Of a stretch of DNA of 64,000 bases, positions 20,304 to 26,324 are shown in pieces. Under the pieces are notes generated by a model. The model searched no databases, was not told the DNA's origin, and saw only the letters and a list, made by a program, of their open reading frames with translations. The DNA comes from Symbiodinium sp. CCMP2592 (taxonomy: Eukaryota; Sar; Dinophyceae; Suessiales; Symbiodiniaceae), in the NCBI GenBank assembly GCA_905221615.1, contig CAJNDT010001284.1, positions 1-64,000 of the forward strand, in the 5' to 3' direction. The translations under genes were made by a program, and so were the position numbers. The first letter of the stretch is position 1, and every line of letters begins with the position of its first letter.

Positions 20304-23300
20304 TTAGATCAAGCGAATTGCAAAGGTCGGGTGCTCCCTCACGGAAGCTGCCAGCTCGACGTCCGACAGCACATGTGGAGCCCGGCAAAGGGAATCTAGG
20401 CACCAAATGCGTCCGTTCCAACGCCGCAATGCAGTCCAGTGCTGGCCGCCATGGTTCTGAATCGCCCCGATGCAGTTGTGAAGGTCTTCGGGTTCCAGGG
20501 CTCGGCGATCTTCCATGTGCCAGCATAGACGCTCGAAGAGCTCCATGGACCTCGTCCGCACGGCCATGATCAGCACCTCGATGGAGTAGTCGCCGCCAGG
20601 CCCCATGTGAGCTTGCTGCTCGTCCCCGACTTCCCAGTTCTCCTCGAGAAACGATGCGACTGCATGCTCCATTGCTGCAACGTCAAAGTATGCGGCACCG
20701 AAGACGTGGTTCAAAGCATGGATGCCGCACCGCAGCTCCACCTGGGATTCAAAATAAATGGCAGGCGAGTCCTGTGTCTCATCTCGTCGGCTTGTATCTG
20801 TTCTGGCAGGCTTGGCGCAAGCATCTTGGAGGTCTGGTGGCTTGGTTGTGGACGTTGAGCAGGCGGCCATGGATGGTGCGCTGCTGGAGCGGCTCTCTGT
20901 CTTTGCCCGCTTCGAAGCAGGGGCACAGCGGCTGCCAGTATCAGCGTTTCGCTTAGTCCCCACCAGCTTGGACATCTCGGGCCTGATCTTGGCCTTTGCT
21001 GTGCTTGATGCTGAAGCGCCGAAGGCCTTTGCCTTGGACTTGTTCTTCGGCTGGGACTTGGGCTTGGGTTTGGCTGGGCACTTTTGTCGGTGTTGCTTGA
21101 TGGCGAGCTTGGTGTTTGGAGCCTCCGTTCCGCAGTCCGGGCAACACCAGGGCCGGTCGATGCCTTCGTTCGAGTCTGGCTGGAAACGAGCCCAATCGGG
21201 CTTCCCCAACTCAGCCAGGCGGCGCTCGTAGAAATCCTTGGTCTGCTGTGGCATGAACAAAGCTTTCCATACCGGCGGGCCGTCACGTTCGGCTTGCTGC
21301 ACCTTCAGCTTGGTCAAAGCCCACTCTGCGTGGGCGTTGAACCGCAATGCCTTGGGGTTGAAATGCTCCAAGCTGCAGAGCGCCTGTTCGGGGCAGCGGC
21401 TCAGGGCGACGTAGGCTTGACCTTCTGCAAAGATGGTGTGGTCGAGGCGGGCGTGGATGCCTTCGTGACAGGTGGCTGCCTGGCTTTTGTGGATCGTCAT
21501 GGCTTTGGCGAGAACGATGGGGAACTGACGCCGCGATGCCCTCTTGCCATCTTTGTCCAGGAAAGTGGCCGCGCGCCGCGAGATTGCAACCGAAGGGGTT
21601 CCGTGTTCTCTCTTCCAAATGGCTCCGGCATTCTTTTCGAAAGCAACCCAGATCTTCTCGACCTCCCCGCCGCTTGCTTCGGTGTCGATGTGCTCCACAA
21701 TGCCGCACGCACCGTTGACCAAGCCATCGGGCACGTCGATGTTGTACCTGAGCATGACGCGCAGCCCAACAGCCACCTGCAGCAGGCTCACCAGGCCACC
21801 TGTGTTTTCAGGTTCGGCCCAAACATCTTCTGGAGCTAGCAGGGCGCCGGTTTTCACATTGGTGTCGACTGCCGGGCAGTCGTGCAGCTGCACACCTTCC
21901 CTCATAACATGCTCCTCTTTGTAGCGCTGGTTGCTTTCGGCGACTGCTTGTCGAGTGGCGTACAGGTTCACGGCTTTGGGGGCGGGCCGCTTGCTGCTGC
22001 CTTTCTTGATCACCATGTTCCGGAGCACCTGGATGTCTGCCTCGGTGCACTTTCCCACCCGAACCCGTGCCAGCAGAGCGGCCCAAGCAGGATCTCGCGC
22101 AGCACGCTGGTTTCCTTCGAGCTCGCAGAGCTGGAAGAGCAGCCACAACTGGCTCTCGAAGACCGGCAGCCCGTTCGGTGGAGGCAACTGGTACAGGTCG
22201 CCAGCAAAGATGACGTGTAGTCCTCCGAAGGGCAGGGTCTGCAGGTCTTTTGCAAGTCGCAGATGTTGATCCAAGCGCTGCAGCATCCACGAAGAGACGA
22301 AGCTGATCTCATCGACAAAAAGTACGGTGACCTTCGACCAGATCTCCCTCAGAGTGGCCAACTTCTGGCCGTCCGGCTGCGGCATGTCGCAGGCTTTGCC
22401 ATAGCTTTGGTTGACAACCGGCAATAAACAGCATTGATGGAGGGTGATGCCGTTGATATTGAAGGCTGCCACGCCCGTGGGCGCCGCGATGATGCATCCC
22501 TTCTTGCTTTGCCGCAAGACATGAGCTGCTGCACGCACCACCACGGACTTTCCGCAGCCTCCCGGCCCGTGAAGAAGCATGTGAAGGCGCTGGCTAGTCT
22601 GGCCGTCCTTTGCATCGGGGGGCTTCAAGATCGTGCTAATGATGTAATTCATCGCTTCTCTCTGGCGCATGGTCTCTGGACTGGGGTTCTCGATCGTGAG
22701 CTTCTGGAAGGACTCCTCGCCTTCTTCAACCGGCGCGAAGGCGTTGCTGGCAGGCCCCGTGGCCACGGTGTCTGGGGCAAGGAAGTCGATATCTTCTCCA
22801 TGCCGCTCTCTCAGTGCCTCCAAAACTTGCAAGGAGTCTTTGTAATTCTCTTCGGCGATCTTGCTGTTGAACCATCCGTCCCGACAATGTGCCGATGCAT
22901 GTGCCTTCATATACATTATGGCCTGCACGGCCTGCAGCTGTCGAGCGGCGTTCACTGTCCCGTCCAGCTGAGGGAAGCATTTGGACCGAAGGAAATCCGG
23001 GTGGCCGTCCACGTCTCGGGCGACGCGATGGAATGCTGCTGCATGGCTTCCCGCGTCTTGCTCCACCAGCCAATCGCCTGGCTCCTTCCAGACTAGATGC
23101 AGCAGCAACTTGGAGTAGTAGAAGGCTTCCGACTCCTCGTCCGGGTTGAAGTTCTGGTAGCCAACGATCGCAGGCTTCTTGCGAGGTTGTGGCTCTTGGA
23201 CGCCTATGTACCTGAAAGCAGCGCAAAAGTCCAGGAAGGTGACGTCCATGAACCGACAAGAAATCGGTTCGCCACCTTCCACCGGCAAGGCTGTTTCTTG

Positions 23301-26300: not shown

Positions 26301-26324
26301 GCCGCATCGCTGGCAGGGAGCCAT
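20304..26324 (-). CDS. Helitron element 2 transposase: Rep-PIF1 helicase-Josephin, 2006 aa
   Basis: This is a single intact ORF from ATG 26324. In order it shows: an N-terminal zinc-type set (C4, C7, C20, C25); four 31-residue repeats starting at residue 45; a second cysteine set (CEKC...CRNC, about 220-250); a Helitron_like_N-type region; and the HUH motif YPHAHILLW (H709, H711). Then come the Y2 pair in SRYILGYTFK (Y878, Y882) and a PIF1 helicase with Walker A GPGGCGKS (1253-1260), VLFVDEISFV, FAGDLYQLPP, GNQRA and AYVALSR. A CCPDCGTEAPNTKLAIKQHR zinc finger follows (C1728, C1731), then a C-terminal Josephin-type domain (1853-2006). Rep and helicase drive rolling-circle transposition; the last domain predicts ubiquitin cleavage. 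The intact frame suggests recent activity. Element 3 is its closest relative in the window. Confidence 0.92.
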   Translation of the reverse strand: MAPCQRCGFGIRSGRGSGWCSNVECREAERAEKKARIEQERAAKGAGRRGPLPNENSSKAERRQLHEARAHATEEGAGGRGPLPDENSKEAQRRQLHEARAHATAEGAGVRGPLPDENSNKAERRQLHEARAHATEEGAGGRGPLPDENSKEAQRRQLHEAREQATEEGAGRRGPLPIASEIQQQGYPFPDEDTLTPEQAQAQYLAFARSWSRFGLSRVCEKCQTLTPARHCKRGKGTEQLLCRNCRENRTKVVLPTPVPIPEALQRLRPIEQHLLAMARISQVLLDKLPSGGPSAQWGRMYAVLMQEPFICGVLEGASLEEDGTVLVEGVDGVTASPARLEFLHAALQDLRRHHRLYQQCPAVETALARMAAILANKAPAASATKPTDPPRAAQAEEEEEEVEVTYLLPKQFQAPKADVHDLRKARGSADLSDDLDAKFFPHLFPSGFGGWQNEYGGFAQYARRRLLSADGRFEGSTGYIMWLLEMKTKKRLSGNINVRISNQRTPRSKSEYENGSRRVYAALRDIPGTQPYLYAKKGVALNMYEQLGIPSFFMTLSCHARQPAMLLAAISGRLLRLHPERPQGELEHHAAEILHLYQNDKNFKWDGLSPNQLCNQQPAVVARQFMHQLSQLMWWLQSGTHARKFHLDEDGDPQDEVKESDGEDAEDDAQAPAPDSAGLHHRMRKQRPPFKVLDYIIRIEWQKRGYPHAHILLWIEEWAKAKKQSDEPAADNGEATVPDWSDEEAMESFIPKSAEDLSDKHITTKSPNSWRQSQRVAARDREVNARLAAEVVHNHTPYCGMYTQGSCRSGFPHDPEPRTRRRTSQEQYAKSRWKSSLAVRRVKGDSMMGQYNMRILRRWRASMDLQVICELTSASRYILGYTFKSEEDRDAQRRMENILADLTSSAAGEGLDNQKVYKAAHAALQGRTTSTFEACHLLLGYPIIEFSRDNVWVQVGPPDTWTVWVPKHEEKVALKQPDHYHSKKVHRSGDLPAAHHWYREMQTRFGDQETALPVEGGEPISCRFMDVTFLDFCAAFRYIGVQEPQPRKKPAIVGYQNFNPDEESEAFYYSKLLLHLVWKEPGDWLVEQDAGSHAAAFHRVARDVDGHPDFLRSKCFPQLDGTVNAARQLQAVQAIMYMKAHASAHCRDGWFNSKIAEENYKDSLQVLEALRERHGEDIDFLAPDTVATGPASNAFAPVEEGEESFQKLTIENPSPETMRQREAMNYIISTILKPPDAKDGQTSQRLHMLLHGPGGCGKSVVVRAAAHVLRQSKKGCIIAAPTGVAAFNINGITLHQCCLLPVVNQSYGKACDMPQPDGQKLATLREIWSKVTVLFVDEISFVSSWMLQRLDQHLRLAKDLQTLPFGGLHVIFAGDLYQLPPPNGLPVFESQLWLLFQLCELEGNQRAARDPAWAALLARVRVGKCTEADIQVLRNMVIKKGSSKRPAPKAVNLYATRQAVAESNQRYKEEHVMREGVQLHDCPAVDTNVKTGALLAPEDVWAEPENTGGLVSLLQVAVGLRVMLRYNIDVPDGLVNGACGIVEHIDTEASGGEVEKIWVAFEKNAGAIWKREHGTPSVAISRRAATFLDKDGKRASRRQFPIVLAKAMTIHKSQAATCHEGIHARLDHTIFAEGQAYVALSRCPEQALCSLEHFNPKALRFNAHAEWALTKLKVQQAERDGPPVWKALFMPQQTKDFYERRLAELGKPDWARFQPDSNEGIDRPWCCPDCGTEAPNTKLAIKQHRQKCPAKPKPKSQPKNKSKAKAFGASASSTAKAKIRPEMSKLVGTKRNADTGSRCAPASKRAKTESRSSSAPSMAACSTSTTKPPDLQDACAKPARTDTSRRDETQDSPAIYFESQVELRCGIHALNHVFGAAYFDVAAMEHAVASFLEENWEVGDEQQAHMGPGGDYSIEVLIMAVRTRSMELFERLCWHMEDRRALEPEDLHNCIGAIQNHGGQHWTALRRWNGRIWCLDSLCRAPHVLSDVELAASVREHPTFAIRLI
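20307..20768 (-). other. Josephin-type cysteine protease domain of element 2
   Basis: The last 154 residues match the ataxin-3/Josephin layout. Oxyanion Gln1861 lies five residues before catalytic Cys1866 (ESQVELRCGIHALNHVFG). His1962 is in GGQHWTALRRW, and Asp1977 in WCLDSL lies fifteen residues after the His. Ataxin-3 has the same Gln-to-Cys and His-to-Asn spacings, with Asn in the last position; Asp is a conservative change. The intermediate GGDYSIEVLIMAV corresponds to the SIQVISNAL-type segment of Josephins. All catalytic positions are present, so activity is plausible. It is encoded in frame with the helicase. Confidence 0.85.
25821..26192 (-). repeat. 93-bp in-frame minisatellite (31-aa repeats) in element 2
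   Basis: Four 31-residue units of the form GAGxRGPLPxENS-x5-RRQLHEARAHATEE cover residues 45-168, followed by a partial fifth (GAGRRGPLP). Units alternate between SSKAERRQ and SKEAQRRQ types, giving a 62-residue higher-order period. The basic RGPLP core followed by a charged helix could bind nucleic acid, in the manner of AT-hook-like arrays, but this is inference. Confidence 0.85.

Follow-up and report, generated by a model that had tools for sequence, protein, structure and literature searches.

The window, by which we mean the whole stretch of 64,000 nucleotides that was analysed, contains on its minus strand the open reading frame that a sequence-only reading had placed at 20304–26324. 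We found it to comprise 2006 codons counted from the ATG (2031 from stop to stop), while 200 shuffles of the surrounding 8.4-kb stretch, made in two-base blocks, had longest open frames of 220 codons on average and 478 at most; a chance reading frame was rejected on this ground. The Pfam domains Helitron_like_N, PIF1 and Josephin follow one another in this single frame (element 1). A second Rep–helicase (element 2) lies within the same window at 55038–60838 on the plus strand and likewise ends in a Josephin domain; it is spread over two different frames, 55038–58790 and 58271–60838. The two elements contain the following features, whose coordinates were verified by translation.

20304..26324, minus strand: element 1, a single open reading frame encoding Rep, PIF1 helicase and Josephin (2006 aa)
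25794..26194, minus strand: tandem repeat in the N-terminal region of element 1, with a 93-bp (31-aa) unit in about 4.3 copies
24183..24800, minus strand: Helitron_like_N (PF14214) of element 1, residues 509–714 (Pfam 4.5e-13)
24192..24200, minus strand: HUH motif H709-A-H711 of element 1
23679..23693, minus strand: predicted catalytic tyrosines Y878 and Y882 of element 1 (Y-x3-Y)
22101..22583, minus strand: PIF1 helicase (PF05970) of element 1, residues 1248–1408 (Pfam 2.9e-20)
21078..21143, minus strand: C-x2-C-x13-H-x3-C stretch of element 1, residues 1728–1749, between helicase and Josephin
20307..20768, minus strand: Josephin domain of element 1, residues 1853–2006
20742–20744, 20727–20729, 20439–20441 and 20394–20396, minus strand: codons of the Josephin residues Q1861, C1866, H1962 and D1977 of element 1, respectively
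55038..58538, plus strand: Rep-containing exon of element 2, with H-V-H at 57018–57026 and Y-x3-Y at 57558–57572
58539..58660, plus strand: predicted GT–AG intron of element 2, 122 nt, with a pyrimidine-rich run before its 3′ end and the frame shift as required
58661..60838, plus strand: PIF1 helicase and Josephin exon of element 2, stop codon included
60371..60835, plus strand: Josephin domain of element 2, with Q at 60395–60397, C at 60410–60412, H at 60698–60700 and D at 60743–60745

Both elements have the HUH Rep with two tyrosines that defines the Helitron superfamily, as Helitron_like_N matches at 4.5e-13 in element 1 and at 7e-13 in element 2, each with an H-x-H and a Y-x3-Y motif. Element 1 has a PIF1-type helicase in the same protein; for element 2 this holds only when the predicted intron is spliced. 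The hallmarks on which the sequence-only reading had called element 1 a Helitron, H709, H711, Y878, Y882 and the PIF1 helicase, are all in place. In a sequence search of the PDB with the whole protein, the match to PIF1 reaches residue 1663 of element 1 (E 1.8e-28). NCBIfam matches to RecD2 scored below the cut-off and were taken as generic helicase core. The bat Helitron Helraiser combines an HUH Y2 Rep with a PIF1-type helicase, a general plan that element 1 has in common with it. Among the PDB sequences searched with the whole protein, Helraiser (PDB 7lcc) matched only the helicase stretch of element 1 (5.8e-17, residues 1240–1646) and no Josephin part. The C-x2-C-x13-H-x3-C stretch of element 1 is a possible zinc finger; it has no Pfam match at E≤1, and no counterpart was seen by eye in element 2. 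Helentrons are marked by an AP endonuclease, and Pfam gave no match to such a family in the element 1 frame at E≤1 or in element 2 at E≤0.1. Canonical Helitrons carry TC at the 5′ end and a hairpin with CTRR at the 3′ end, and insert between A and T. Taking the element boundaries as approximate, we scanned the 3′ flanks for CTRR-T with a perfect stem of 6–12, and found none in the 2.3 kb past element 1 or the 3.2 kb past element 2.

With 58539–58660 treated as a predicted intron, element 2 reads through 1892 codons with no stop; element 1 is uninterrupted at the matching position. The helicase and the Josephin domain of element 2 share one frame with no intron between them. Pfam assigned Helitron_like_N (7e-13), PIF1 (6.5e-23) and a C-terminal Josephin (1.7e-15; 57.6 bits, cut-off 26) to this element, and it was the sole match besides element 1 itself when element 1 was searched against the window by tblastn. 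A weak likeness to the N-terminus of element 1 is also present at 54415–54696, and the start of element 2 at 55038 is provisional.

Josephins are ubiquitin proteases, whose Gln, Cys, His and Asp/Asn we take to be the catalytic residues; Josephin-2 and ataxin-3 are cellular proteins that are not known to contain a Rep or helicase. The four residues reported by the sequence-only reading near the C-terminus of element 1, Gln1861, Cys1866, His1962 and Asp1977, were all confirmed. Josephin (PF02099) matched residues 1865–1995 of element 1 at 49.9 bits, well over its cut-off of 26 (E = 4e-13), and was the only Pfam family to match residues 1840–2006 at E≤1. A PDB sequence search with this C-terminal part of 167 residues returned JOSD2 (Josephin-2) at 2.1e-6 and ataxin-3 at 2.7e-4, with Josephins making up five of the seven sequences at E≤10 and the other two at E≥0.7. 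Josephin-2 was also found with the whole element 1 protein (1.1e-3), and ataxin-3 with the Josephin domain of element 2 (2.5e-6). When both domains were combined into a two-row profile, the best PDB match was JOSD2 at 2.1e-9 and Josephins were the only significant matches, five of the nine sequences at E≤10 (the other four at E≥0.41). In the PDB sequence alignments, Q, C, H and D/N of the solved Josephins (among them PDB 6pgv, 2aga, 2dos and 3o65, Josephin-2 and ataxin-3) align with those of both elements, consistent with membership of the same family. A fold search with a weak model of the element 2 domain (pLDDT 54.3) placed four Josephins at the top of the PDB matches (E 6.6e-5 to 8.9e-4), and these were all the matches at E≤0.001; TM values against Josephins were 0.43–0.49 normalised to query length, and the fold alignments showed 20–21% identity to solved Josephins. 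We regard the Josephin identity of the domain and its fusion to the Rep–helicase as practically certain.

The two elements were aligned part by part. Identity is 46.6% for Rep (218/468 aligned), 51.2% for the helicase (218/426) and 40.4% for Josephin (61/151), the last alignment spanning 151 of 151 residues, while the helicase–Josephin linker aligns over 100 of 182 residues, at 34.0%. By tblastn, the C-terminal parts of the two elements match at 115 bits (34.6% over residues 1805–2003), against 19–31 bits between the Josephin parts of the elements and solved Josephins. The two elements agree at each histidine of the HUH motif, at the two tyrosines, at the lysine of Walker A, and at Q, C, H and D of the Josephin domain. 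The conservation of the four Josephin residues alone is modest evidence, because all four catalytic columns would fall among 61 random identical columns of 151 with a chance of about 2.5%. Of the 61 identical Josephin residues, 34 are encoded by different codons in the two elements, so residue identity persists despite codon change. The mismatch at codon positions 1, 2 and 3 is 0.45, 0.47 and 0.64 in Josephin and 0.39, 0.31 and 0.61 in the helicase, where the contrast is stronger. At the DNA level, comparison of both elements with their flanks gave eight matches at E≤1e-3, seven of them coding and one a flanking repeat. When the Gln-Cys-His motif of Josephin was written as a degenerate DNA pattern, it matched exactly twice in the window, once per element, and in 0 of 100 shuffles; as the pattern was built with both domains in view, this count is no independent test. 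The second Josephin-bearing element, absent from the sequence-only reading, is the strongest evidence. Since the diverged element 2 also has the domain, with its key residues kept, an ancestral and selected domain is a better account than chance capture, and the Josephin domain probably predates the separation of the two elements and was retained by selection.

Searches for relatives by protein pattern gave 67, 63 and 42 pattern matches in viral contigs with three two-row alignments, and 59 in a prokaryote contig collection with one two-row alignment, none of which was confirmed by tblastn. The element 1 protein alone gave no pattern matches in the viral or prokaryote collections, and two Josephin motif patterns gave none in viral contigs. 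The absence of relatives from viral and prokaryote collections therefore says little about eukaryotes.

Deubiquitinase domains are already known from Helentrons. In PMC9741609, VTD (herpes-tegument-like) domains are described in Helentrons, namely zebrafish DrT1 and DrT2; these zebrafish domains cleave K48- and K63-linked di-ubiquitin, and are proposed to guard proteins needed in transposition, while Josephin is mentioned as one DUB class in a list. An OTU-like cysteine protease in Helentrons is likewise described in PMC4067079 and PMC6431247. The sequence-only reading had named only OTU as the known Helitron protease; a second deubiquitinase class, VTD, has also been published, with biochemistry (PMC9741609). 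Like elements 1 and 2, DrT1 and DrT2 are presented there as rolling-circle Rep–helicase transposons with a deubiquitinase domain; theirs belongs to the VTD family, whereas elements 1 and 2 end in Josephin, with no AP endonuclease found. The OTU Helentrons are, according to PMC4067079 and PMC6431247, also rolling-circle transposons with a cysteine protease of a deubiquitinase superfamily, but OTU is described as additional ORFs (PMC4067079), whereas Josephin here stands in frame behind the helicase. We found no literature report of a Josephin domain in any Helitron, in line with the sequence-only reading, which knew of no description of it in rolling-circle transposons; subscription papers and repeat-database records lay outside the search, and a prior mention is possible. 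On the present assignment, Josephin is a third deubiquitinase family in rolling-circle transposons, after OTU and VTD.

Helitron Rep–helicases perform rolling-circle transposition. We think it fairly probable that the two elements represent an autonomous-type Helitron lineage, in which a Josephin cysteine protease, situated at the C-terminus of the single transposase polypeptide, removes ubiquitin in cis or at the nick. The Rep domain would nick and join strands and the helicase would unwind the displaced strand, while the tethered Josephin would strip ubiquitin in cis from the Rep–helicase, or else from proteins present where the DNA is nicked; such removal would delay the proteasomal loss of the transposase during rolling-circle transposition. 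The predicted deubiquitinase activity of the domain is probably real, and stabilisation of the transposase or the countering of silencing is a plausible putative function. The nearest case with experimental data is the VTD of zebrafish Helitrons (PMC9741609). As the main role of the Josephin domain, self-protection of the transposase falls just short of an even chance in our estimate.

Alternatively, the main substrates of the domain may be ubiquitin signals of the host where transposition takes place, such as those on histones or replication-clamp proteins; acting on them would counter repair or silencing, and the Rep–helicase would serve to deliver Josephin there. Tethering to the Rep–helicase in both elements would suit such a role, as would the herpesviral relatives of the Helitron VTD, which, according to PMC9741609, target the degradation of host signalling components. 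However, no ubiquitin-interacting motif is among the Pfam matches of element 1 at E≤1, and sequence does not separate action on host signals from self-protection; we consider the former unlikely to be the main role. Gene-fragment capture by Helitrons is described in PMC6431247, and a captured host gene fragment carried as a passenger, with no role in transposition, would agree with the modest contrast in identity between Josephin (40.4%) and the alignable linker (34.0%), in a comparison of two copies only. Such a passenger is nevertheless quite improbable, as the position and frame of the domain relative to the helicase are common to both elements, the four catalytic residues and the 151/151 alignment are kept while the linkers align over 100/182, and neither Josephin domain has an internal stop codon.

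It is also conceivable that the domain, being of cysteine-protease type and closing a large multidomain protein, processes the Rep–helicase or another protein of the element rather than acting as a deubiquitinase. This we find very improbable, given that some Josephin structures were solved in complex with ubiquitin or K48-linked chains (PDB titles), and that Pfam matches of element 1 at E≤1 include no ubiquitin-like domain. That the domain is in fact a member of some other papain-like family (for instance UCH, OTU or VTD) and merely resembles Josephin is scarcely credible: profile matches to these families are weaker or absent, with no VTD or OTU match in residues 1840–2006 of element 1 at E≤1, and no OTU or tegument match in element 2 at E≤0.1, where the match to UCH is weak. 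The Josephin assignment made by the sequence-only reading scored best by profile (49.9 and 57.6 bits in elements 1 and 2), by PDB sequence search and, from the weak model, by fold, and no other peptidase family sought by these three routes scored above it.

The OTU and VTD domains of Helentrons had already hinted that a deubiquitinase benefits rolling-circle transposons. A third family, joined to a transposase that lacks the endonuclease of Helentrons and retained by two elements that have diverged deeply, strengthens this idea and makes it testable. Tentatively, Josephin Helitrons could form an ancient lineage of their own among the rolling-circle transposons of eukaryotes, probably of protists, with deubiquitination as a part of transposition. 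If so, OTU, VTD and Josephin would be three recruitments of one activity from different families, and escape from ubiquitin-dependent turnover or silencing would be a general need of rolling-circle transposons.

The window also holds TTTAGGG-type repeats, which would suggest an alga or alveolate as the host. No tRNA was found in it, Rfam gave no matches at gathering thresholds, and the dinoflagellate spliced leader was not found.

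Besides the two Josephin-ending Rep-helicases, a third rolling-circle-like coding unit lies in the window:

5610-9772, minus strand: a Rep-like ORF, then a helicase ORF

H-V-H and Y-x3-Y motifs are present in the Rep-like ORF, which is overlapped in a different frame by the helicase ORF that comes after it. Profile searches with the Rep-like ORF gave weak matches, below the cut-off, to Phage_GPA (5.1e-4) and REP_ORF2-G2P (8.7e-3), and none to Helitron_like_N at E ≤ 0.1. The helicase is RecD/Dda-like SF1B, matching AAA_30 (4.5e-18) and the Dda-like phrog_325 (4.4e-25), with no match to PF05970, and no protease family was found at E ≤ 0.1 across the two ORFs. 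The unit may represent a Rep-helicase element of another type. It is flanked on both sides by a pair of repeats:

2939-4987 and 17014-19077: direct repeats of ~2.05 kb each, 96% identical

These are spaced ~14 kb apart in a long-terminal-repeat-like arrangement, with TTTAGGG-type runs at the start and end of the repeats.

Two further features lie within the protein of element 1, the 2006-codon ORF combining Helitron-type Rep, PIF1 helicase and Josephin:

21078-21143, minus strand: C-x2-C-x13-H-x3-C stretch between helicase and Josephin
25794-26194, minus strand: ~4.3 in-frame copies of a 93-bp tandem repeat, transposase N-terminal region

The former resembles a small zinc finger, with a likeness to the ubiquitin-binding UBZ fingers; Pfam returned nothing over it at E ≤ 1, and comparison by eye revealed no counterpart in element 2, the second Josephin-ending Rep-helicase. 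The repeat-bearing N-terminal region shows weak similarity (4.8e-4) to 54415-54696, upstream of element 2.

Two other repeats were noted:

60908-61207 and 63701-64000: 300-bp repeat, copies 99.7% identical
33100-39845: imperfect palindrome of 6.7 kb, 93.5% over 6883 alignment columns

The first 300-bp copy comes shortly past element 2 and the other closes the window; a relative (~96%) lies at 43632-43828. Both ends of the palindrome carry telomere-like arrays, of AACCCTA and ATTTAGG, and its interior contains (TAG)n / (ACT)n arrays.
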